DNA from: Zygnema cylindricum
Taxonomy: Eukaryota; Streptophyta; Zygnematophyceae; Zygnematales; Zygnemataceae
Length of the DNA: 64,000 bases
Reading direction: 5' to 3'
Assembly (NCBI GenBank): GCA_037447655.1
Contig: JBBHKE010000928.1
Coordinates: 221,907-285,906, forward strand
The translations under genes and the position numbers were made by a program. How positions within the stretch are numbered: position 1 is the stretch's first letter; each line of letters starts with the position of its first letter. The notes under the pieces are model-generated. The model was given only the letters and a program-made list of their open reading frames with translations. It did not search any database and was not told the DNA's origin. This document shows positions 5,083 through 63,570 of the stretch, piece by piece.

Positions 5083-6560
5083 GTGATGTGATGTGATGTG
5101 ATGTGATGTGACAACACGAACTGATGAAACCAATTGGACACAATCCATTGGGTAAAAATATAAATACTGTGAAACCAATTGAATAATACGAATGCGATGA
5201 AACCAATCGGATACAATTCTATGGGTGCAAATATGAATATAATGAAACCAATCGGAAACAATCCAAATCCATGAGCAAAAATATGGATATTGTGAAACGA
5301 ATTGGATACAACTCACGTGTAAACATATGAATATGATGAAACCAATTGGATACAATCCATGGGTAAATATATTAATACGATAAAACCAATTGGATGCAAA
5401 CCATGGGTAAAAATATGAATACGATGAAACGAATCAAATACTATCCATGGGTAAAAAGATGAACACGATGAAACCAATCGGATACAATCCATAGGTAAAT
5501 TCATGAATACGATGAAACCAATCGGATACAATCCATGGGTAAAAATGGGAATATGGATGAAACCAATAAGATACAATCCATGGGTAAATTCATGAATACG
5601 ATGAAACCAATTGGATACAATCCATGGGTAAATATATGAATGCGATGGTACTAATCGGATATCCATGGGTAAACATATGAATACAATGAAACTAACCATA
5701 TACAATTCCTGGGCAAATATATGAATAATGTGAAACCAATTGGATACAATCTATAGGTAGAAATATGAATAGTGTGAAACCAATTGGATAATATCAATGC
5801 GATGAAACCAATCGGATACAATCCATGGGTATAAATGTGAATAAGATGAAACCGATCGAATACAATCCATGGGTATAAATATGAATATGATTAAACCCAT
5901 CAAGTACAATCCATAGTAAATATATGAACACGATGAAACCGATCGGATACAATCCATGGGTATATTGATGAATATAACGAAACCAATCGGATAGAATCCA
6001 TGGGTAAATATATGAAAGCGATGAAACGAATCTGAAACAATCCCAATCCATGAGCAAAAACATGATTACTGTGAAACCAATCGGATACAATCCATGGGTA
6101 AAAAGATGAATACAATGAAACCAATCTGATAGAATCCATGGGTAAAAATATGAATTGGATGGTACTAATCGGATACAATCCATAGGTAAACATACGAATA
6201 TAATGAAACCAACCGGATACAATCCATTTGTTTCCTTTTAGGTGTGTTCCCGTCTCTCTCTTTGTTTTTTATTGTAGTTTTTCAATTTTGGCCATGCCAC
6301 CCCTTTTGTACCCCCAGACTCAAATGGTTTACCATCGTGCTTTTTAATTTATCCTGCTTAGTAATAAAAAAATAAAATAAATAAAATATGAATGTGATGA
6401 AATCAATCGAATACAATTCAAGGGTAAAAATATGAATACGATTAAACCAATCGGATACAATCCATGGGTAAAAAATTGAATACGATGAAATCAACCGGAT
6501 ACGATCCATGGGTAAAAATATGAATCTGATGAAACCAATTGGATACAAACCATAGGTAAA
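5083..6560. repeat. 44-45-bp minisatellite, about 30 units
   Basis: After a short TGATG microsatellite (5083-5112), units of the form GATGAAACCAATCGGATACA-ATCCATGGGTAAA-tATGAATAC repeat to 6560. Units vary by substitutions and small indels, including shortened units. The array is broken at about 6227-6382 by an unrelated insertion. Long open frames across it are simply the repeat translated and are not genes. Confidence 0.9.
6227..6382 (+). mobile_element. Dispersed repeat with A-rich tail (LINE/SINE 3'-end-like) inside the minisatellite
   Basis: This block interrupts the 44-bp array. It contains GGCCATGCCACCCC, then GGTTTACCATCGTGCTTTTT, and ends in TAATAAAAAAATAAAATAAA before array units resume. 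The same core occurs at 45178-45262. A terminal A-rich tail and dispersed copies suggest the 3' end of a non-LTR retroelement or a SINE. I could not define a target duplication. Confidence 0.45.
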
Positions 6561-6835
6561 TATATCACTATTTTTGCCGATGTTGCCTTGATTGGTAGAA
6601 GATGATTTCTAGACCTCTCAAACGGAGAACAACATAGAAGGTTTCTGGATGTGAGCTCCCTTACTAATAGTACTAGTCTGAGACCAGAGGTTGGAGACTC
6701 TGGTAACCTTTCCATTTCATATTTTGTCTTTTGACAGATTTTACATGCTATATATTTATCTTTTCCCTCATCAATTACAGCTCATAATGTTCTCAGCACT
6801 GTGTAACCTTTATTTCACCCACATAGTGTTTTCAC

Positions 6836-11331: not shown

Positions 11332-13131
11332 CTAATTTGCCATTGGAAGGGGGAAGAATTTTATAGTATGCTTCGCACCCAAAAATGCAAGGTGAGAAAC
11401 ATCAGGTTTAGTACCATGCCATGCCTTAAAGGGGGTTTTGTTAGAAAGAGAAGAAGTAGGGGAGCGATTGCGAAGATAAGAGGATGTTAGTAATGCTTCA
11501 GCCCAAAAATGGAATGGTAAGGAAGCAAAATGGAGGAAAGAGCGAGACATATTAATGAGAGTGCGGTTGAGGCGCTCAGCATCACCATTTTGTTGGGGAG
11601 AATGAGGAGAAGTTTTGTGATGAAAAATGCCATGCGATAGTAAATACTCAGAAAAAACAGTAGAGACAAACTCCCCCCCATTATCCGTGCGCATGGTTTT
11701 GATGCGAGAGGATAAGTGATTTTCCACAAGGGCTTTGAAGTGTTGAAAATGAGTAAAAACTTCGGATTTATGACGCATAAAATAAATGTATGTAAAACGA
11801 GAAAAGTCATCAATAAAGGTGAGGAAATAAGAAGCACCACCAAGACTTTGTATGGGAATAGGGCCGCACACATCACTATGAATGAGATCAACAGGAGCCA
11901 AAGAGCGAGAAGAAGAAGAAGGAAAAGGAAAGCGAGGCATTTTTCCAAGAATACAACCATGACAAAAGTCAATTTTGTTCTCATTAAATGGAGTAATTCC
12001 AAGTACAAGCCCTTTGCTAAGAGAAGCTAGGCTAGCACCATTGAGGTGGCCAAAACGAAGATGCCATGTGAGAAAAGAGGAAGAAGAGGGAGAATGTGCT
12101 AATGAGGCATGAGCGACATCATTAAAGAAATCTAAAATATAAAGATTTCCTAACCGTGATCCACTTCCTATGAGAGTTTTAGGAGAAGAAAAGAATTGAA
12201 CATTGGATTCAGTGATAATGCCATAACTACCATGGCGTAAAGCCAAACTAGCTGAAAAAAGATTTTTTTTGAGGTCAGGGACAAAGTAAACTTTGTCCAA
12301 GATAATTGGACGTGAAGCGTGCGAACCTGAATTAGAATGCACCTGTCCAACGAGAGTGGAAGTCAGTTCCATGTTGTTCCCAAGAAAAATGCGTAAAGGG
12401 ACTTGAAGAGGAACAACATTAAACATAATATCACGTTTACAACACATATGATGAGATGCGTCGGAATCAATAAGCCAATCAGAAGTATTACCTGATTGTG
12501 AAAAGGCGTACCCATAGTCCAAGGGAGGAATAGAGGGAGGCGCATCTAGTACCGGTACAATAGCGGGGGATGCGGATCCTATGTTTGGGTTGGAGATTGG
12601 AGGATTTTGAGGAGGATAGTAGTAATGAGGAAAAGGGTACCACGGTGGTGGGGGAGGACCGTATGGAAGATTAAAGTCGACTGTCGCGTGCGCCGCATGA
12701 CCAGCTAGCGGCGTGGCGGCATTGGGGTACGCAAAAGACTTTGAAGTTGGAATTACGTGGGAAAGTCCTCGCGGTCCCCCAGCCGCACGTTCTTTTTCTC
12801 GCTTTCTGGCCAATGCGGGGCACGCGTCCACCACGTGATCGCGCTCTTTGCAATACTTGCAGAAGAGTGGAGATCCTGCAAGATTTGGAGGTTTCTTTGG
12901 AGAAGAGACAAACAAAGCTGACCCATCAATAGAAATGCCAGGTTTGTTAAGATTTAAACGGGTTTCTTCATGTAGAAGACGGTTAGTGAGATCTGAGAGC
13001 GTAACAGTGGAGGCATCTGTACTAACCGTACTTGAAAAAGAGTCAAAAGAGACAGGTATGTTGTTTTTTGAAAAGTTAGTTTCGTGCGAACACATCGTTT
13101 CGTGCGTACGTGATGTTTCGTGCGTACGCAT
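11332..13131 (-). pseudogene. Copia-1 gag C-terminus, protease and integrase (decayed)
   Basis: 599-codon open stretch on the minus strand, preceded directly by TAA, so most of gag is missing. The order is: gag zinc knuckle CKYCKERDHVVDAC, a proline/tyrosine-rich segment, a protease active site reading DSDASHH where the family has D-S/T-G-A, integrase zinc-binding WHLRFGH and CHGC, then the integrase core with HSDVCGP, RTDNGGEF and the NGDAERLNRT glutamate motif. The Gly-to-Asp change in the protease (12460-12462), the missing gag start and the 3' frameshift near 11380 mark a dead copy. The element's 5' end should lie at or beyond the 13241-14096 gap. Confidence 0.9.
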
Positions 13132-13240
13132 TTACGCGATATATTGTGGAGGTTCGAAAGGATTTATGGATTGGGGAATTAAATGTACACATAAAATTAA
13201 TGGAGTAATTGAGTGGCGCGAAATGTGAGAGGAAATGGAC

Positions 13241-14096
13241 NNNNNNNNNNNNNNNNNNNNNNNNNNNNNNNNNNNNNNNNNNNNNNNNNNNNNNNNNNNN
13301 NNNNNNNNNNNNNNNNNNNNNNNNNNNNNNNNNNNNNNNNNNNNNNNNNNNNNNNNNNNNNNNNNNNNNNNNNNNNNNNNNNNNNNNNNNNNNNNNNNNN
13401 NNNNNNNNNNNNNNNNNNNNNNNNNNNNNNNNNNNNNNNNNNNNNNNNNNNNNNNNNNNNNNNNNNNNNNNNNNNNNNNNNNNNNNNNNNNNNNNNNNNN
13501 NNNNNNNNNNNNNNNNNNNNNNNNNNNNNNNNNNNNNNNNNNNNNNNNNNNNNNNNNNNNNNNNNNNNNNNNNNNNNNNNNNNNNNNNNNNNNNNNNNNN
13601 NNNNNNNNNNNNNNNNNNNNNNNNNNNNNNNNNNNNNNNNNNNNNNNNNNNNNNNNNNNNNNNNNNNNNNNNNNNNNNNNNNNNNNNNNNNNNNNNNNNN
13701 NNNNNNNNNNNNNNNNNNNNNNNNNNNNNNNNNNNNNNNNNNNNNNNNNNNNNNNNNNNNNNNNNNNNNNNNNNNNNNNNNNNNNNNNNNNNNNNNNNNN
13801 NNNNNNNNNNNNNNNNNNNNNNNNNNNNNNNNNNNNNNNNNNNNNNNNNNNNNNNNNNNNNNNNNNNNNNNNNNNNNNNNNNNNNNNNNNNNNNNNNNNN
13901 NNNNNNNNNNNNNNNNNNNNNNNNNNNNNNNNNNNNNNNNNNNNNNNNNNNNNNNNNNNNNNNNNNNNNNNNNNNNNNNNNNNNNNNNNNNNNNNNNNNN
14001 NNNNNNNNNNNNNNNNNNNNNNNNNNNNNNNNNNNNNNNNNNNNNNNNNNNNNNNNNNNNNNNNNNNNNNNNNNNNNNNNNNNNNNNNNNNNNNNN
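13241..14096. other. Assembly gap, 856 N
   Basis: Run of N. It probably hides the start of copia-1 gag, its 5' LTR, and the left part of the TIR element that ends at 14454. Any reading frame through it is meaningless. Confidence 1.
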
Positions 14097-14454
14097 CTTT
14101 ATCACAACGCATGCCTGTCCCATAGAGGCATGCTTTACCATGAAAACATATGAGAACGTGATTTTTGTCGACGAGATTGCGTCTCTTTCTTCCAGTGCAC
14201 ATTCACATGTGCGCGCAATAATGTTAAGTGTCTTTTTATGCCTTTGTAATTCAAAAAGTACCATTTCGTACGGAGATACCCTGTCCGTACGCAACACTAT
14301 TTCCATCGCAGTGTACTTTCTTTATTAACGCTAATTGAAAAAAAGCCTAATTAGAATAATGGAAAAAATAGAATTATGGATTATGTTTCGGGTTTTTTTT
14401 TTTGAAAAAAGGGCACCGAATTGGCGTTATATACTCTAATAGCGATTGACGGTG
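14097..14454. mobile_element. Right part of a TA-flanked TIR element (family T2)
   Basis: The right end reads ACTCTAATAGCGATTGACGGTG followed by TA (last 18 bases most conserved). The interior has GAATTGGCGTTATA and AGAATAATGGAAAAAATAG, matching the element at 15343. A small hairpin, GCATGCCT with inverted AGGCATGC, lies just inside the gap edge (14110-14134). The left end is lost in the gap. Confidence 0.5.
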
Positions 14455-15342
14455 TACTGTACTTACCTGTACATATTGCGCGTTAAGCAGCCCGTATTTT
14501 ATCCCGCTATTTACAGAATCTTGCCATTTGGCACCAATTGTGATTTTGTTCACATAAGGGAAGGCTAATCGATCACACTCGCGTTGGTCCTAAATTTCAA
14601 ATTTGCCATGGCGAGGGTGACGTCGTCAAATTTCATGTGACGTCGAATGGTGTCTTTTCGTTTTGGAAGTTCTCCTGTGTGTGTGTACGTCATGTCACGT
14701 CTCCCCTGACGCTCCGCTACGCGCTTTGCGTTACGTGTCCCCTTGTGGTGGTCGTTTTCACTTTTGTCGTGTGTTCAGTTTCAGGGGTAGGTCGAGGGCA
14801 TCATAAGTCAGACTGAAAGTACTGTACGGTAGTGCGAGTCTTTTGACGCAGGTGAAGTCAAAATGATATCGTATTCGTATAAGATAAGACCAATGAAATC
14901 GGTCTTGCATATCTCTTTTGGCCGTCAGTTTTGAAATTGTTAAGCTACGGATATGTACAAACTGCCCTTGAATTTTGCGGAGGATAATGCGACCGTCCGG
15001 CAGTCGTGTCCGTTCGTCCCACCGTTTCTTGGCGTGCAGAAAAATCTCTACTTAGCCATGTACAGAGTGGAAAGTACGATTTCCGAGTGCTTCGCGAGTC
15101 AGCGGATTGGATACAGGGGTGCAATTGAAAATCACGGACCCGTGGACATCTTGCATCCAATTGGTTGAATGGCATAAATGACGATTGTAATTGGAAGGAC
15201 GATTTCTGCCAATAGTGGTGCTTGGGGAAATCGACAGGGTAGAGTGTCGGAAATGCACGCGTGTCCTGTTTGAACATTTAAGAACGACTACGTCATTATT
15301 TCAGCGGTACTATCATGTCGGCACAATTGCCGCGGTTAACTA
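14455..15342. other. Intergenic, nothing recognised
   Basis: No coding sequence with family features. The short open frames on both strands at 14945-15277 are out-of-frame overlaps of each other and match nothing I know. Confidence 0.5.
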
Positions 15343-15880
15343 CACCGCCAATCGTTATTAGCGTGTAAATTTTTTTAGCGTATAAAAATAATTACCGTGG
15401 TGTACGCTATTTAAGAATTTGAAATTTTTGGAAAATATCATACATTCTAATTGTTTGGTTATGGTAATTTGGATCTTTGAAAAAAAATGTCGGTCGCAAA
15501 CATGCTTACACTAATATAAATCTCCGTACAAAATCTGACAAATCGTACACAAATCGTACATTCACACGGTCGAAACGAGGCTATCGGACGAATATGTGCG
15601 AGTGGGATTTTTTACGACCTGGTTTTTTTTCCTTTTTAGAACGCACATTCTCATGCGTCCGCTGTTACTAAAACTAATTTATTGTACTTTTTAACTTAAA
15701 AAGGTACATTTATGTACGGTCTGACACTGACCGTACACCACTCTATTTAAGAGACAACGTACTGAAAATAACCCTAAATAGAATAAAGAAAAAAATAGAA
15801 TGAACTACACTAAGGGAGAATAAAAAAAATAAAAAGCGGGACGAAATTAGCGTACACAACGCTAATAACGATTGGCGGTG
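15343..15880. mobile_element. TA-flanked TIR element (family T2), complete
   Basis: 538 bp. The left end is TA followed by CACCGCCAATCGTTATTAG; the right end is its exact inverse followed by TA, extending to at least 22 matching bases. The interior has no transposase. The segment GTACACCACTCTATTTAAG with AAAATAACCCTAAAT recurs at 34134-34205. TA target and short length fit a Tc1/mariner-type MITE. Confidence 0.75.
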
Positions 15881-15882
15881 TA

Positions 15883-17324
15883 CTAGATTGTCGAGGGTCA
15901 GTTTTTTTAGTGTTTTTGTTGGCGAGCGTTAGAACGCTCCAAGTTCTGTGTGTTGGGAACATTGTGGAAAGGGAACATTGTGGAAATCGAGTTTGCTGGA
16001 ATCACATTTGGATCATGTTCGTGTCTAACTTTGTAGTTTTGGGTCGCATCAGACATTTGTTCGTTCGACAAAGTGAGGTTGTTAGGCGTTCGTTTTGCTA
16101 TTCATACCGGTGCGTGGACCTGCGCAGTTGGTCTATCATATTGTTTCGGTCTTGGTCAATTTTTAGTTGTTGTTTTTGGTAGCGGGTTAGTAAAGGATGT
16201 TCTCAGTGTACTCTTTGTTTTGAGTTGCGATCATATTGTGTTAAATTGAGTAAGAGACTGAGAGAAAGCTTTGTAACTTGTGGCTGCATATAATGTAACT
16301 GGATGATGTGGTGATGTATGTACAACGGGTTTTTGATGTTGTTATTAAATGATTGCGATGAGTTTATTTGTTTTTAATATATAGTTATGTACCAAGTACG
16401 TTGTGCTCTGGTTTTTTTAAATTGTTTGAGGTAGTGTAGGCGCGATGGGGGGCGAGAATAACAAAACCACTCCCTCTCCATTTTTCAGTCCACAACTCCG
16501 CCGTTTCTTGAGAAACCTCTTATAGAAGCTTACCACCAAGATTTAAAAATTATAACCACAAAAACACAGTTATGATACCAAATTCATATGACAATATTTA
16601 AAGACTGAAATCTCATGGCTTTATGTCACCAACGACTTTAACATGCCTCTCCGACACCTTAAAATTTTATAACAAACACAAAAAACTTGTGGGAAAAAAA
16701 TGTTCAAAAGAGTGGAATTCCTCCCCAAAAGAGTAAAAACAAATGAAGTACTTCGAGTTCTCCTAACCTCCGCAAAATTAGACCCACAGAATTGGGTTGT
16801 CCGGCCTTAGATACATTGGGTGTCCATGTTAAATCTCACAAAACGGACCTTGAGAAGTGTTAAAGGTTATTTCTAAACATAAGGTCACGACCGCATGAGA
16901 GATGGCCATCAACAAGACAATATATTGTTACCGTAAAGTATAGATAATATACCTTAGCTTCCCCTATGTACGACTTTTTAATGACGTAACTACGTGAATT
17001 TGTCGTTGGCAACCTTTCATGCCATCGAGTATTTCCGCCCGAATAGAAACCAATTATTCTGCCACATCAATATGAATACAAGGGCTCTTCCAAACCTTCT
17101 CACTACCATGTACCCTCAAACGGACAATGAAGGCACAATGACCTAAGGTGTACAAAAGTAATGTGGAGCTAAAAACTGTTAACCACGGGAATCGACCACT
17201 TTAACGTATGATTCAAGATTTGCGTATATCTTATAGAGGTATTATTAGAGTATCTGTGCATCTTCCACTACCATTATTGGTGGTGAAATTTGTGGTTTTG
17301 TTAGGCACACAAAATCTCCGTACA
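15883..17324. other. Intergenic, nothing recognised
   Basis: AT-rich sequence with no supported gene. A 90-codon frame at 15910-16182 has no recognisable domain and no supporting context. Confidence 0.5.
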
Positions 17325-17480
17325 CTACAAAGCGAATCGTAATTAGAGTAAACAATGCTAATTCGGTCGCCCTAAATTTCGACTCTATCATGTTAAATAG
17401 AGTAAATGATTCATTTTTTTTCATTATACTATTTACGGTAAAGTTTAATTAGCGTAAAAAATCGTAATATAGGTTCGTTT
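17325..17480. mobile_element. TIR element fragment (left end)
   Basis: TACACTACAAAGCGAATCG, then GAGTAAACAATGCTAATTCGG and CGACTCTATCATGTTAAATAG (each cut to its core), are the reverse complement of 35380-35486. This is one end of the same element type. The opposite end is not visible before 18262. Confidence 0.5.
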
Positions 17481-18261
17481 TAAATAGTGTGGAGGACGGA
17501 CAACGTCTGACTGTGCAAAATTGCAATTTTATAAGTAAAAAGGTACAAATAATAATTTAATAGAATCGCGCTCGCATGTGAAATTGCACTAATATCATTA
17601 TAAATGAAACTACGTTTAATGATCAACAAGTACGGATTAAAACAAGATGACAATGTCTACCCAAACCTCACAAAAGCGCGAAGCTAAAAATGTTATTGTA
17701 CATTTTTACTACGTGACATTTTTTTTTAGAGGAAAAGGCATCCATATGCAACAATAATTTACTTTTGCGCCCCCCTTAACATCTTTGAAGATGTCCTTTT
17801 ATTGTTTCTCGATCATAACCTTTTATTTTTTTTGTCACGATTTAGTATTCGCGACCCTAATTCATTAATCGCCAATGTCCACAATGTTGGTGAACATAAT
17901 TTTACCTTGTGACGATGGTTGAATAGTGATGGTAATTTCAACTTTTAAACCATTTATGTTCCTCGCCTTTTTCTTGTTGAGTACGATGAGATATGTTGTT
18001 AGAGTGAGTCATACGGGTTCGCACTAAAACAATTTTCAACGTATAAAGTTTGTTTCCCTTTAATATCGTGTGTTTAAAACGTATCGTGCAATTGACAACC
18101 CTTTCAAGATTTCATGGGAGTACACACGAGTCAATCATCGTTCTCTTGATTGTAAATTGGTAGAGAGCTAAAAAACGCGATTGGTTTTATTAAGTTCTCC
18201 TGGTTGGGCCATTAACCCATAAAACATAGCGATGTAGCTCACTAAGTTATAAGGTTTTTTC

Positions 18262-18266: not shown

Positions 18267-19155
18267 TAAAATTCTGTGGTCTCCATTGACCCACAGAATG
18301 AGCAGCCTATGTAAAGCCTCTAGGATAATATTTGCCCCTTCTAATTTCCAGCTGAATAAGCGCCGCCCAGGCACACAAATATTCTGACCACTCTCACCCC
18401 TATGAGGACAAGACTCCCTTGAGTCAAACGCAAAAAGAATCACTGAATTTGCTCCCCTGAGCAGTAAGTTATGGCTGGTCAAAGATGACCTTTATAGTTA
18501 CAAACTATCTTAGAGAGAGAGGTACCTAAATATTACTAAGTCTCGGTCTGCCTACTCACGACTACCTACTACTAAACCCTAGTCCAATAGGAACACTATA
18601 TTGTACAAGAAGGTACAATGGGCGATGTACTTATTGTACGACCATTGTACGACAAGGTCTACAAGGTGACACCTGTCAAATCGGAAGTCATGGATCCTCC
18701 TCCCATCTTCTCCGGTATCAAATAATGTGGCGCCACGTGGCATCGCGTGACGCTATCTCGGTATGCCGCCAAAAGCTCACTTCGCGTGGCGGCTATAATG
18801 CCGGCCGTCTGATCAAAACATATTTTACACGGTTCAGATTCGCGTACATGCAGGAATTGCCCCTTTTGGTTAGTATGGTGTTAATTAGCTGTTGCATTAA
18901 TGTTTATATATTTATGAGACCCGTCACGTGTATCGTTTCGTAACGCCTTCATGGTTAAGGCGTTAGGCTATAGAGAATCTAGAGATCGCAGGTTCAAATC
19001 TAGACTTAGGCACCATTTTAGTAAAATACCCTTTACTTCAAAAACTGCCACTTTCTAAATATGGCGGCAGCCATGGCACGCCTTTGATCCTCACTCTCTT
19101 TATTTAAAGCAAAACTAAAATAGGGAAGTAAACTATTAATTACCTCTTTTCAACA
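18267..19155 (-). mobile_element. 3' LTR of Ty1/copia element 2
   Basis: 889 bp on the minus strand. It starts TGTTGAAAAGAGG right after the polypurine tract AATTAAGGGGAG and ends CAGAATTTTA, a mutated form of the partner LTR's CAGAATTTCA. A TATA-like CTATAAAG lies at 18497-18490 on the element strand, and the most conserved block of the LTR family (18290-18480) lies downstream of it, probably the transcription start and R region. A tRNA-like sequence sits inside near the TG end. Confidence 0.85.
18945..19015 (+). other. tRNA-like sequence (A and B boxes) inside the LTR
   Basis: 71-nt block on the plus strand, opposite to the element. It has an A-box match TGGTTAAGGCG, a B-box match GGTTCAAATCT, and ends GGCACCA. 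The 5' GCCT can pair with the 3' AGGC of an acceptor-like stem, but the T stem and anticodon arm are poor, so this is not a working tRNA gene. It is also present at 31547-31617 and, diverged, at 33703-33788. Confidence 0.6.
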
Positions 19156-23597: not shown

Positions 23598-24888
23598 TGT
23601 CATGCCGCATCGAGTCGGTTGCCCGCGCGCACGATATAATCCACGCACGCGTAGTATTTTGCATGCATGCGCAGTATTTCTCACGCACGCGCAGTATTTC
23701 TCACGCACGCGCGGTATTTCTCACGCGCGCGCAGTATTTCTCACGCACGCGCGGTATTTTGCACGCAAGTGCGGTTTTTTTTGCATGCACACGCAGTATT
23801 CCGCCGCACGCACAGTTTTGGGAACGCGCGCGATATTTGATGCATGCACACATGATTTAATGCATGCACGCACGATTTAATGCATGCACGCACGATTTTC
23901 GCACGCATATATAATTTTCGTTCACACGTACAATTTAACGCCGATTCATTTATTTATGACGTGTACGCGATTCGCGTGCACGTTTCGTTGAATAATACTA
24001 ATTCCGTGCGATATGTTTTATTTCGTGCGCAGGTATGCTATTTTCGAAGTATGGACGCGAAGTATCGTTTTGGCGACGCATCGCGATTTCCACAAATATT
24101 TCGTGCGATGGTTTTCGTTTCGTGCGTATGCACGCAATTTCGGGAGTATCGACGCGAAGTATCGTTTGGCGCCGAATCGCGATTCCTGGTAGTATCGGCG
24201 TCGCTTCGATACCTTGTATTTTTTTAAGTCGCCAACCCATGTAGGTTCGCGCGCACATGTAGTTAGGGAGGGTTTTTACCCTCGGATTGTGGATTTTGTC
24301 AAGCGTACGGCAGACGATGTTGGCCGCCTATTGGCCAACATCTTTAGTAGTTTCATGCATGTAAAGTAGACTAGACGTAGGCTAATTTTGCTTAGGCCTA
24401 GTGTAGCTCTTACTTAGCCTAATTCTCAGACTTATAGAATTTAGCTTTTGGACAAGAATTTTCTCTTGGCAGCGGAGCTTTTCTCTTGCTCTCTCTCTCA
24501 CCGATTGCCCACGTGTCTTTCTTCTCCTTGCTAGCTAGCTGTAGAGGCTAGATAGAGTAAGATTATTCTCCTTGTTTTTCTGCCCTCGTTTTTAATCCAT
24601 ACGACCTAAGGCCACGTCCGGAAGGTTTCCCTCCAAACTTGGTCTTTTGGTGGATTTGTGGAATTGGAGATCGTGGGGGAGCACATTTGTACCTTGATGT
24701 GCCTTCCTCGGGCAGCTTGACGGTTTGGTTGTGTGTTTTTGTCTTGTTTGTATTTCGGTTGGCTTGAAAGGAGTATATTTTTGATCGGATTTGGATTTTC
24801 CCTTGTTCCGGTTGGAATATTTCTTGCTTTGATGTCATAACGGGATAACTCTTGTAGGGAATGTGATAAAGACCAGAGAGCCTAGTGG
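23598..24888 (+). mobile_element. LTR copy A of the gag-protease element (lacks the first ~188 bp)
   Basis: 1.29 kb, about 95% alike to 29439-30688. It begins TGTCATGCCGCATCG at the junction with copia-2 and ends AGAGAGCCTAGTGG. It contains a G+C-rich tandem repeat of a 20-bp unit (CACGCACGCGCAGTATTTCT) at about 23635-23900 and CTTGCTCTCTCTCTC further on. Compared with the copy after the polypurine tract it lacks the block beginning GGTTCACTTCACTCTAGGGG. Confidence 0.8.
23635..23900 (+). repeat. 20-bp tandem repeat within the LTR
   Basis: About twelve units of CACGCACGCGCAGTATTTCT with drift (GCATGCACGCACGATTTAAT at the right end). The same array occurs in the other LTR at 29485-29690. Open frames through it are repeat translations. 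Confidence 0.85.
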
Positions 24889-26518
24889 CTACCTCCTGGC
24901 TTAGCATTCTTGTCCATAAGCTCCACTTTTTAAAAATCACATTTTCTAAAAGTTTGTTTTTATAAAAATAATTCATAAAAAAAATATTACTTTTCAAATT
25001 CAGTTTTTATTCTTGTTTTTTTCTTCCCATTTTCCTGCCTATTTACCTTTAATTTTCAGTTTTACTTCTCAGTTTTGTGTGATAAAATAAAGCCAAAGGA
25101 AAAAAAAAATATAAAAATTACATTATTTTCAATATAAAATCTATTTTTTCATTTCTAGATTTTCTTCCACCTTTTATTTGAGTTGGTTTTTTTTCCTTTT
25201 GATCTAGCTTTATTTTACTACAAGTTTCGTTCTACTTTCTCTCTATTTTTGCTTTCGTTTTCAGTTTTGCATTGGGAAAATATACTATAAAAATAATTTA
25301 ATTTATAAATTTTATTTTATAAAAAAAAAAAACATTTTGTTTTGGTTTTTTGTTTTCTTCTTTCTTGCTTTCAATTATTGTCTTCTATCTTGCTTTCACT
25401 CTATTTCTGATCTGCAGATTTAGGTATGAATTTGTGTCAAATTTTTAGGGTTAATCTGCGAAATTAGGGTTTGGCCGCAGATTTAGGGTTTGGGCGTATT
25501 TAGGGTTTATTTTTTGAAATTCTTAACCCTAGGTCAGCATATTACCATTCATTGGTCGCAGATTTTTGATTTTTCCAGCGTGGAATTAGATTTGCCCAAT
25601 CTTACCGTATTTTGTGTTTTATTTTGATTTTTTCTCAATATTCCTCATATTTCTTTCTTTTAGTGCAACTTAATTTGTTAACTAGTGGATGTTTATTTTG
25701 TTCGGGATTTGATATTTTCTTCTTTTTCTCTTGTCAAATTTAATCATTCAGAAAACTTAACAAAATAAATATATATATTCTCTATATCAAGATTGCACGA
25801 TTTATCACCTATAATTATCACCGCTTTATAGTTGGGCATAGCGTGGCATAGTGCCGATACGCTTACCCTAGCAGGATACTAATTGTTTTGGTGTTTAGCG
25901 GTGGTTCTTGACACGTTCATTTGGAATCAGATCGGGTTCCATTCCAAGGAGCTTTGCAAAATCCGACTTGCCTCGACCAAGTCCGGTTCACTTTTAGTAC
26001 TCACCAAAGTATTAAAGGTGTTTGTAAGTATCACGATGCCTTGCGGGTGCAAGAGCGTTCTTTTGTAATTTGGACACTCGTGTAGGGGTTCGGTGTGGAT
26101 TGGTTATATTACGAACCTTTCTATTTGAGCATTTGCATTTTCCTTGCTTTCCTTGCACGTTATCTGGCCGTGAGTGGCCTTGAGTTTCCTTGTCACTGTC
26201 TGGATTGGATTTTATTTTATAGATCTTGTCGTTGGTGGCACTGTTTAGGCAATTTTCTGTCTGTGTCGCTGTAGATCTGCACCGAAAGGTGCCTGGATAG
26301 TTTCTCTGTTTGTTTTTATAGATCTGGCCCTTCGGCCTTGCCCCATTGTTTGCAGGGTAGAGGTTTTGGTATTCCGACTCTTTGCTAGATCCGACCACCG
26401 GGTCTTGGTAGAGCTTTCGTGTGTTCGTTTGTTTTGTGTGGATTGGCCTGTCATTTGACGCACCTCGGTTAGGTCGTTCCAAAATTCCCATTCATACTTG
26501 AGGGTTTTCTCTTCGTGT
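24889..26518 (+). other. Long AT-rich leader of the gag-protease element
   Basis: 1.6 kb between the LTR and gag with no coding sequence. It holds several TTTAGGG words (25440-25520), which resemble the plant telo-box. No standard initiator-tRNA primer-binding site (TGGTATCAGAGC) is visible after the LTR end. Confidence 0.55.
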
Positions 26519-29250: not shown

Positions 29251-30695
29251 TTGGGTTCACTTCACTCTAGGGGAGTATTCTTTCCCTTCTTTCTTGGGTC
29301 ATTTTCACCTTTGTTCCTTCTCATGGTGTATTTTATTTATTGACTTTTCATATTTATTTCCGTTGTTGTATATGTTTGTGAGCATGACTTTGCTTGTTGT
29401 GATGCATGTTTGCTTGCTTGCCTCTCATGCACGACAGGTGTCATGCCGCATCGTGTCGGTTGCCCGCGCGCACGATATAATCCACGCACGCGCAGTATTT
29501 CTCACGCACGCGCGGTATTTCTCACGCGCGCGCAGTATTTCTCACGCGCGCGCAGTATTTTGCACGCACGTGCGGTTTTCTTGCATGCACGCGCAGTATT
29601 CCGCGCGCACGCACGGATTTGGGCACGCGCGCGAGATTTGATGCATGCACGCACGATTTAATGCATGCACGCACGATTTTCACACGCATATATAATTTTC
29701 GTTCACACGTGCGATTTTACGCCAATTCATTTATTTATGACGTGTACGCGATTCGCGTGCACGTTTTGTTGAATAGTACTAATTCCGTGCGATATGTTTT
29801 ATTTCGTGCGCAGGTATGCTATTTTCGAAGTATGGACGCGAAGTATCGTTTTGGCGACGCATCGCGATTTCCATAAATATTTCGTGCGATGATTTTCGTT
29901 TCGTGCGATATGTTTCGTTTCGTGCGTATGCACGCAATTTTGGGAGTATCGACGCGAAGTATCGTTTGGCGCCGAATCGCGATTCGTGGTAGTATCGGCG
30001 TCGGTTCGATACCTTGTATTTATTTAAGTCGCGAACCCATGCAGGTTCGCGCGCACATGTAGTTAGGGAGGGTTTTTACCCTCGGATTGTGGATTTTGTT
30101 AGGCGTACGGCAGACGATGTTGGCCGCCTATTGGCCAACATCTTTAGTAATTTCATGCATGTAAAGTAGACTAGACGTAGGCTAATTTTGCTTAGGCCTA
30201 GTGTAGCTCTTACTTAGCCTAATTCTCAGACTTATAGAATTTAGCTTTTGGACAAGAATTTTCTCTTGGCAGCGGAGCTTTTCTCTTGCTCTCTCTCTCA
30301 CCGATTGCCCACGTGTCTTTCTTCTCCTTGCTAGCTAGCTGTAGAGGCTAGATAGAGTAAGATTATTCTCCTTGTTTTTCTGCCCTCGTTTTTAATCCAT
30401 ACGACCTAAGGCCACGTCCGGAAGGTTTCCCTCCAAACTTGGTCTTTTGGTGGATTTGTGGAATTGGAGATCGTGGGGGAGCACATTTGTACCTTGATGT
30501 GCCTTCCTCGGGCAGTTTGACGATTTGGTTGTGTGTTTTTGTCTTGTTTGTATTTCGATTGGCTTGAAAGGAGTATATTTTTGATCGGATTTGGATTTTC
30601 CCTTGTTCCGGTTGGAATATTTCTTGCTTTGCTGTCGTAATGGGATAACTCTCGTAGGGAATGTGATAAAGACCAGAGAGCCTAGTGGATCCTCC
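29251..30695 (+). mobile_element. Full-length LTR of the gag-protease element
   Basis: About 1.44 kb from TTGGGTTCACTTCAC after the polypurine tract to AGAGAGCCTAGTGG. The part from 29439 matches LTR copy A; the first 188 bp match the fragment at 30696-30880. Confidence 0.65.
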
Positions 30696-30880
30696 TTGGT
30701 TCACTTCACTCTAGGGGAGTATTCTTTCCCTTCTTTCTTGGGTCATTTTCACCTTTGTTCATTCTCATGGTGTATATATTTTATTGACTTTTCATATTTA
30801 TTTCCGTTGTTGTATATGTTTGTGAGCATGACTTTGCTGGTTGTGATGCATGTTTGCTTTCTTGCCTCTCATGCACGACA
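30696..30880 (+). mobile_element. LTR 5' fragment, second copy (right end of the insertion)
   Basis: TTGGTTCACTTCACTCTAGG to CATGCACGACA repeats 29251-29435 almost exactly and stops at the junction with the copia-2 LTR. With copy A it would rebuild one complete LTR if the two ends of the insertion were joined. Confidence 0.75.
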
Positions 30881-31757
30881 TGTCTCCATTGACCCACAAA
30901 ATGAGCAGCCTTTCTAAAGCCTCTAGGATAACATTTGCCCCTTCTACTTTCCCATTAAATAAGCGCCACCCAGGCACATAAATATTCTGACCACTCTCAC
31001 CCCTATGAGGACAAGACTCCCCTGAGTCAAACGCAAAAAGAATCACAGAATTTGCTCCCTGAGCAGTAAGTTATGGCTGGTCAAAGATGACCTTTATAAC
31101 TACAAGCTCTCTTAGAGAGAGATGTACCTAAATATTACTAAGTCTCGGTCTGCCTACTCACGACTACCTACTACTATACCCTAGTCCAATAGGAACACTA
31201 TATAGTACAAGAAGGTACAATGGGCGATGTACTTATTGTACGACCATTGTACGACAAGGTCTACAAGGTGACACCTGTCAAATTGGAAGCCATGGTTCCT
31301 CCTCCCATCTTCTCATGTATCAAATAATGTGGCGCCACGTGGCATCGCGTGACGCTATCTTGGTATGCCGCCAAAAGATCACTTCGCGTGGCGGCTATAA
31401 TGCCGGCCGTCCATTCAAAACATACTTTACACGGTTCAGATTCGCGTACATGTAGGAATTGCTCCTTTTGGTTAGTCTGCTGTTAATTAGTTGTTGCGTT
31501 AATATTTATATATTTATGAGACCCGTCACGTGTATCGTTTCGTAACGCCTCAATGGTTAAGGCGTTAGGCTATAGAGAATCTAGAAGTCGCAGGTTCAAA
31601 TCTATACTTAGGCATCATTTTAGTAAAATACCCTTTACTTCAAAAACTGCCACTTTCTAAATATGGCGGCAGCCATGGCACGCCTTTGATCCTCACTCTT
31701 TTTATTTAAAGAAAAACTAAAATAGGGAAGTAAACTATTAATTACCTCTTTTAAACA
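30881..31757 (-). mobile_element. 5' LTR of Ty1/copia element 2 (main part)
   Basis: Matches the 3' LTR (18282-19155) throughout, including the TATA-like CTATAAAG (31098-31091 region) and the tRNA-like block. On the minus strand it starts TGTTTAAAAGAGG at 31757, next to the TTAAC target copy at 31758-31762. Confidence 0.85.
31547..31617 (+). other. tRNA-like sequence inside the copia-2 5' LTR
   Basis: Second copy of the 71-nt block at 18945-19015, with intact A box (TGGTTAAGGCG) and B box (GGTTCAAATCT). The end is GGCATCA instead of GGCACCA. Confidence 0.6.
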
Positions 31758-33863: not shown

Positions 33864-33873
33864 NNNNNNNNNN
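33864..33873. other. Assembly gap, 10 N
   Basis: Ten N, probably a join of unknown length. One arm of the mirror repeat starts at the next base. Confidence 1.
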
Positions 33874-34130
33874 CATAAAAGACAGCCTAAAAGCTTACGC
33901 ATATAGCACACGTTATAAAAAAAACTAAAGGCAACCAACAGTAGAATTGTGCATACGAATAATAGGTTGCACAGCGCTGAGTTTTTTTATACATTAACCA
34001 CTACATGGAGCGCTCCATGTAGTAGTTAATGTCTTTGAAAGCTTCGGTTACGAAGCGCTTTTTTGTCGGTTGCCAGTAACAATTGAGGGTCTGAAAATCT
34101 CTTATAACCGTTCTAAGAGACATTACAACA
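33874..34130. repeat. Mirror repeat, arm 1
   Basis: This 257-bp stretch read right to left, without complementing, is identical to 34271-34527 read left to right. Position x pairs with 68401 minus x. The match starts exactly at the gap edge and stops exactly at 34130/34271. It contains a near-palindrome at 33992-34031. Confidence 0.97.
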
Positions 34131-34270
34131 TCTGACTGTACACCACACTATTTAAACGATGACGTATTTCCGTTTTGTACTGTACTAGGAAAATAACCCT
34201 AAATGGCGTACAGAAAAATTCAAACCTCTCCGTACTACGCCGTACTTCTTATTTTGTTTTTATACGGAAA
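34131..34270. mobile_element. TIR-element sequence between the mirror arms
   Basis: GTACACCACACTATTTAAAC and GAAAATAACCCTAAATGG match the inside of the T2 element at 15343-15880 (about 15720-15780), so this is family T2-like sequence and is not part of the mirror. Confidence 0.5.
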
Positions 34271-34527
34271 ACAACATTACAGAGAATCTTGCCAATATTC
34301 TCTAAAAGTCTGGGAGTTAACAATGACCGTTGGCTGTTTTTTCGCGAAGCATTGGCTTCGAAAGTTTCTGTAATTGATGATGTACCTCGCGAGGTACATC
34401 ACCAATTACATATTTTTTTGAGTCGCGACACGTTGGATAATAAGCATACGTGTTAAGATGACAACCAACGGAAATCAAAAAAAATATTGCACACGATATA
34501 CGCATTCGAAAATCCGACAGAAAATAC
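34271..34527. repeat. Mirror repeat, arm 2 (probably the genuine copy)
   Basis: Partner of 33874-34130. This orientation resembles the region 35170-35290 in its series of motifs: GCGAAGCA, then a long palindrome centred on CCTCGCGAGG, then an ACGTG-containing stretch and a TGCACACG-type end. That suggests this arm is real and arm 1 is the reversed one. Confidence 0.9.
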
Positions 34528-34977: not shown

Positions 34978-35195
34978 TAGTTACTCACTTTACGTGAGCT
35001 CCACTGTGAAAGCACACACCGACAATGTGAATCAATGTGAATTACTTATTCAATGTAAGAACATTGATTCGTAAATAGTGTGGCGGAATCAATGTGAAAT
35101 ACGTTTTCAATGTAAGAATGTTGATTCGTAAATAGTGTGGCTTCGTCCGATTACATTTTGGTCTTCATCTGCGAAGCAATCGCTCCATACGCCTC

Positions 35196-35238
35196 TGTAT
35201 TGGTGAACCCACCTCGCGGAGGTGGGTTCACCAATACA
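35196..35238. repeat. Perfect 20-bp-arm palindrome
   Basis: TGTATTGGTGAACCCACCTC, then GCG, then the exact inverse. A similar palindrome with one mismatch is at 34370-34409. Such sequences form strong hairpins and sit inside TIR-element DNA. Confidence 0.9.
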
Positions 35239-35379
35239 AAACCAGTTAATTCGACACACCTGGACGATACACACGTGCGTCGATGAAAAATGAAAATTTT
35301 CACACGCCCCCAAAGTCACGTGCCTTCGGACAAGGTGACCATAAAATCTTTGGCAAAAAAGAAATACGTTTTTTTCCTG

Positions 35380-57302: not shown

Positions 57303-63570
<6,268 letters not shown>

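Follow-up and report, generated by a model that had tools for sequence, protein, structure and literature searches.

Exact mirror repeats at two assembly gaps of a Zygnema cylindricum contig are probably an error in the sequence record

In a 64,000-nucleotide window of the Zygnema cylindricum assembly (the whole stretch of DNA that was analysed), the right edge of each of the two assembly gaps carries a string of letters that exactly reverses, without complementing, a piece of sequence lying further into the same flank, and we attribute these mirrors, with a probability of about 0.96, to an artefact of assembly or gap filling of one kind or another; the mirror arms are probably an error in the record, real DNA being improbable. 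At the first site (locus A), positions 33874-34130, reversed and uncomplemented, equal 34271-34527 at 257 of 257 positions by direct string comparison, the match extending inward by 0 bp and being limited outward by a run of 10 N (33864-33873). The first-pass annotation of this DNA had described this 257-bp pair and had placed the start of its left arm at the first base past the 10-N gap, and both statements were reproduced on recomputation; its account of the mirrors was nonetheless incomplete, as it missed a second pair (locus B), at which 14097-14146 reversed equals 14254-14303 at 50 of 50 positions in a mirror scan of the whole window. The window contains two N runs, namely that at locus A and a run of 856 N (13241-14096) at locus B, and in both cases (2/2) the mirror arm begins at the first base after the Ns, an adjacency of the kind that a gap-filling or assembly artefact is expected to leave. 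The anatomy at both sites, read along the plus strand, is an N run, then a reversed piece of the flank (the gap-side arms, A1 and B1), then the remainder of the flank (140 bp at 34131-34270 and 107 bp at 14147-14253, hereafter the spacers), and then the flank piece itself (the far arms, A2 and B2).

These two pairs stand apart from everything else recovered when the window was compared with its own reversal. The scan collected exact matches of at least 16 bp and dropped as low-complexity those rows with fewer than 8 different 3-mers; it returned 199 matches, 188 of which were removed by this filter, leaving 11 rows that comprise the 257-bp pair (two rows), the 50-bp pair (two rows), one match of 20 bp and six of 16 or 17 bp. 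By comparison, the longest mirror in each of 40 dinucleotide-preserving shuffles of the window without its Ns measured 15 to 27 bp. Neither gap in the window has, at its left edge, a complex mirror or complement-only match of at least 16 bp. Allowing for gaps yielded 8 rows, among which were three further matches, weak and self-overlapping, that lie in tandem arrays at 61.8-62.0 kb and 29.5 kb, together with a pair of complement-only matches at palindromes inside A1 and A2. The arms at both loci match as reversed strings and not as reverse complements, and the complementary matches found within the arms are short palindromes.

Uncomplemented mirror symmetry is also the hallmark of the natural mirror repeats that can form triplex DNA (H-DNA), and the symmetry of the present arms would fit such a feature. 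H-DNA repeats, however, are purine/pyrimidine tracts, whereas the arms here are of mixed sequence (purine fractions of 0.53 and 0.46, with longest purine or pyrimidine runs of 8 and 5), are long, lie 140 and 107 bp apart, and adjoin gaps. The base content of the arms excludes a natural H-DNA repeat, which we hold to be vanishingly improbable.

The question of which arm is native could be approached through repeats, since diverged relatives of the flanking sequence exist elsewhere in the window. An inverted-repeat search and alignments delimit a MITE-like element at 15341-15884 (plus strand; copy 15) that carries an exact 24-bp inverted repeat close to either end (15341-15364 and 15859-15882), and diverged relatives of it were found at 14145-14462, at 17320-17590 on the minus strand (copy 17), and at 34131-34218; copies 15 and 17 served as yardsticks. 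On these alignments, the native sequence at both gaps belongs to this MITE-like repeat family. The left flank of the 856-N gap (12901-13240) is similar to sequence lying upstream of the 17.5-kb copy (score 22, reached by 0 of 400 shuffles), as if the gap lay inside a copy of the element.

At locus A, the best alignment of A2 joins 34283-34475 to 35115-35297 in the written direction with a score of 37. The first-pass annotation had noted a likeness of this arm, in its natural direction, to 35170-35290, and that observation is borne out: against 35140-35310, A2 scores 35 (0 of 300 single-base shuffles as good) and A1 scores 8 (300 of 300). A2 contains an imperfect palindrome, centred at 34389.5, and hairpin centres at 34358-34421 and 35196-35238 have the same layout with different stem letters while their elements align with each other; by eye, it is as if the stem had been preserved while the sequence changed. 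The spacer adds a second line of evidence, as its first part is a diverged copy of the repeat found near 14281, 15724 and 17514 (minus strand). Its alignments begin at 34128 (against 15724-15793), 34120 (against 17514-17417, minus strand) and 34132 (against 14281 onward), alignment ends in such diverged repeats being fuzzy here as they are at 14145 for locus B against copy 15. The 100 bp from 34131 score 29, 30 and 23 against the three repeat copies (0 of 500 shuffles each, these and all other nulls for arms and spacers against repeat copies being single-base and not dinucleotide shuffles), and, once reversed, the spacer matches the repeat copies no better than shuffles. Furthermore, over the 100 bp that precede the counterpart of 34131 in the other copies, the locus B copy and copies 15 and 17 match one another with scores of 24, 27 and 30 (0 of 500 each), whereas A1, at the equivalent place, scores 7, 7 and 8 against them (497, 494 and 398 of 500 shuffles as good). 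A1 is thus foreign to its place in a flank that is native; the mutual match of the copies upstream, the null result for A1 and the homologies of A2 and of the spacer together argue that A2 and the spacer are native as written and that A1 is out of place where it is written.

Locus B gives a comparable, if less firm, picture. The segment 14145-14458 aligns to 15591-15884, and 14194-14462 aligns to 17590-17320 (minus strand); both alignments cross the boundary between the spacer and B2, which are thus homologous in a single alignment to the 15.6-kb and 17.5-kb copies. B2 scores 22 and 21 against copies 15 and 17 (0 of 500 shuffles each), and B1 scores 6 and 6 (453 and 459 of 500 as good). The homology break at the junction of B1 and the spacer is less clear than its counterpart at locus A: for the first 47 bp of the spacer there is no match in copy 17 and a weak one in copy 15 (equalled by 21 of 1000 shuffles), and copies 15 and 17 lack a mutual match over the 60 bp immediately before the junction point (937 of 1000 shuffles score as well), although they show one when 150 bp are taken (score 21, 0 of 1000). 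From these alignments, B2 and its spacer are native as written, and B1 matches no copy tested. The notion that the spacers are themselves the reversed extensions was also considered and is ruled out, as both match repeat copies in the written direction and the reversed spacers are null in five tests. The earlier contention that the gap-side arm at locus A is the false one is therefore strengthened, in that A2, B2 and both spacers match relatives as written, and A1 and B1 match none of those tested.

These same observations bear upon whether the mirrors could be real duplications, made by copying a strand in the same polarity but in reversed order. The matches are exact and far beyond chance, which such an event would explain; yet both begin exactly at N runs, and at locus A the gap-side arm lacks repeat-family homology where the other copies retain it. 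No polymerase, ligase or recombination pathway is known to reverse the order of letters without complementing them, and since such an event would additionally have to coincide with both gap edges, we regard it as extremely improbable. We give just as little credence to the related idea that, at two repeat-rich sites, plant DNA was genuinely copied backwards without a change of polarity and that the assembly broke there as a consequence. The first-pass annotation had left open a new kind of rearrangement, and this alternative has gained no support.

Other attempts to orient the arms were less informative. Base composition favours A2 in the forward direction by +3.1 to +9.1 for k=2 to 6, values within the spread of 311 ordinary segments, and for the spacer at locus A the sign changes with k, being negative for k=2 and 3 and positive from k=4 to k=6; the test points the same way as the repeat comparisons for A2 and is given little weight, because it falls inside the null spread and is mixed for the spacer. 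Strict Smith-Waterman alignment over 2-kb tiles failed to separate A1 from A2 (best scores 30 and 33) and gave 22 and 29 for B1 and B2; a forward string beat its own reversal in 22 of 30 random 257-bp segments. Permissive scoring against the named diverged copies did separate the gap-side arms from the far arms. In the permissive scan of the window, locus B was left unmasked, so that the top rows for B1, B2 and strings containing them are self-matches and were ignored. Last, 30-base pieces of A1 and of A2 had no match (0 each) in viral contigs, a result that is expected for plant-like DNA and is uninformative.

How an assembly pipeline might generate such strings is a matter on which we lean, with some confidence, toward a specific proposal: a leftward walk that was written backwards at the gap edge. 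After scaffolding, a gap filler or polisher would try, by local assembly, to carry the right contig leftward into each gap, walking from an anchor within the right flank; the right ends of the arms (34527 and 14303) would mark where each walk began, and the walks would have halted at 34271 and 14254, with 140 bp and 107 bp still to go before the edge of the contig. A leftward extension that stops before reaching the gap ought to add nothing. We propose that the consensus of the failed walk was instead kept in right-to-left order, its turn-back into reading order missing, and inserted immediately to the right of the N run; as a reversed string no longer matches the flank, it would not have been recognised as sequence already present and would have been counted as new bases. 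Such a walk would account for the anatomy seen at both sites, and we infer it, its anchor, the missing turn-back and the type of tool from the exactness of the mirrors, their position at gap edges, the relatives of the far arms and spacers, and the unmatched gap-side arms. The first-pass annotation had likewise preferred an uncomplemented string reversal during gap filling, and the second mirror, which shares this layout and sits at the one remaining gap of the window, lends support to that preference; the evidence base for an artefact is two gaps in one 64-kb window.

Local reassembly of the type carried out by Pilon fits as a candidate source, the tool being our inference and unproven. The gap at locus A is exactly 10 N, which may correspond to Pilon's default minimum of 10 N for unclosed gaps. 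The arm lengths of 50 and 257 bp both exceed the Pilon default K of 47, although with two cases only this is weak. According to the accessible text of its description, Pilon performs K=47 walks from flank k-mers, and the resulting consensus extensions reduce gaps that are not closed (Walker et al. 2014, PMC4237348); a minimum-gap option is mentioned in the available parts of two further papers (PMC7202002, PMC5897528). In these respects the wrong partial fills reported there for Pilon, GapFiller and IMAGE resemble the present case, where unclosed gaps would likewise have been shrunk by consensus extensions of the flank, and the one wrong Pilon partial fill reported lay in a repeat, just as the mirrors here adjoin repeats (PMC4237348, as far as the accessible text goes). 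Against Pilon as the source, the two assemblies on which it was tested had 14 partial fills, of which 13 are stated to be free of error (PMC4237348, same portion), and the wrong fill, unlike those here, was an extension into a different repeat copy, the accessible portion of that report describing no reversed, uncomplemented strings (PMC4237348). More generally, no description of reversed, uncomplemented gap fills was found in the literature searched, a search whose coverage excludes most subscription journals.

An artefact could also have arisen by a route that leaves a trace of genuine structure. A true inverted repeat (the reverse complement of the far arm, the spacer, and the far arm) may exist at each gap, with an extension from the opposite strand entered reversed and uncomplemented, in which case the gap-side arm would be the complement of real DNA. 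This route yields letters identical to those of the backward walk, and the surroundings of the mirrors are rich in short inverted repeats, as it would favour. The native flanks belong to a MITE-like family, and one copy of it carries exact 24-bp inverted repeats near its ends, as noted above; in fold-back elements and MITEs, however, the arms are reverse complements of each other, which the mirror arms here are not. The reverse complement of B2 agrees at 14 of 15 letters with a more upstream part of the 15-kb copy. Of four forms of B1 compared with the two copies it scores highest on each (equalled by 8 and 38 of 400 shuffles), and in four windows, 60 to 250 bp long, that lie directly upstream of copy 15 it is equalled by 11, 0, 2 and 3 of 1000 shuffles, all of these counts coming from many tests and being uncorrected. 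The 14-of-15 match, though, stops some 56 bp before the junction point of copy 15, where a fold-back would require 9 bp, and is thus about 47 bp out of register; against copy 17 the reverse complement of B2 scores weakly (equalled by 292, 379, 33 and 78 of 1000 shuffles), and the complement of A1 matches none of the three copies better than shuffles do (398, 488 and 373 of 500 equal it). Such a route further demands perfect fold-backs of 257 bp and 50 bp at two of two gaps. We consider it unlikely, its odds being already contained in the overall probability given above for an artefact of any kind.

A decoding error, in colour space or a similar scheme, would produce mirrors in yet another manner. 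In two-base encoding, reversal and reverse complementation give the same string, so that decoding an inverted copy with a wrong starting base would produce a mirror; reversal without complementing then follows from the encoding itself and is explained without any copying mechanism. True inverted copies would be needed at both gaps, however, and the restriction to right gap edges is not explained by decoding itself, and we judge this to be very unlikely. The backward walk at the gap edge remains our preferred reading.

Apart from the mirrors, the window has the look of land-plant genomic DNA, and we record its content here as observed. Copia-type reverse transcriptase and integrase domains are present. 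Two pairs of direct repeats are nested, 18279-19155 with 30882-31757 (94.5% identical) and 23682-24897 with 29483-30696 (93.6%), the outer pair enclosing a copia-type reverse transcriptase ORF on the minus strand and the inner pair a zinc-knuckle ORF; the arrangement suggests two LTR retrotransposons, one lying within the other, whose LTRs these repeats would be. Tandem arrays of a 44-bp unit occupy 5185-6227 and 6383-6565. A piece of a GH9 domain is followed by an ORF with a CBM49 domain within 60689-62684, with a proline/serine-rich ORF between them (61616-62050), and a second ORF at 62914-63450 resembles the CBM49 ORF by eye; the pairing of GH9 with CBM49 is typical of plants. A tRNA scan of the window returned 0 genes.

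With both gaps in a 64-kb window carrying a mirror, the error may be systematic. If this holds across the assembly, tens to hundreds of false bases could stand at the right edges of partly filled gaps, and k-mer statistics, repeat annotation, primer design and searches for unusual DNA would be misled by them. An error of this form is cheap to detect, as a reversed-string match adjoining an N run, and equally cheap to mask. The mirrors themselves are almost certainly not a real feature of this genome and would then hold no biological significance.
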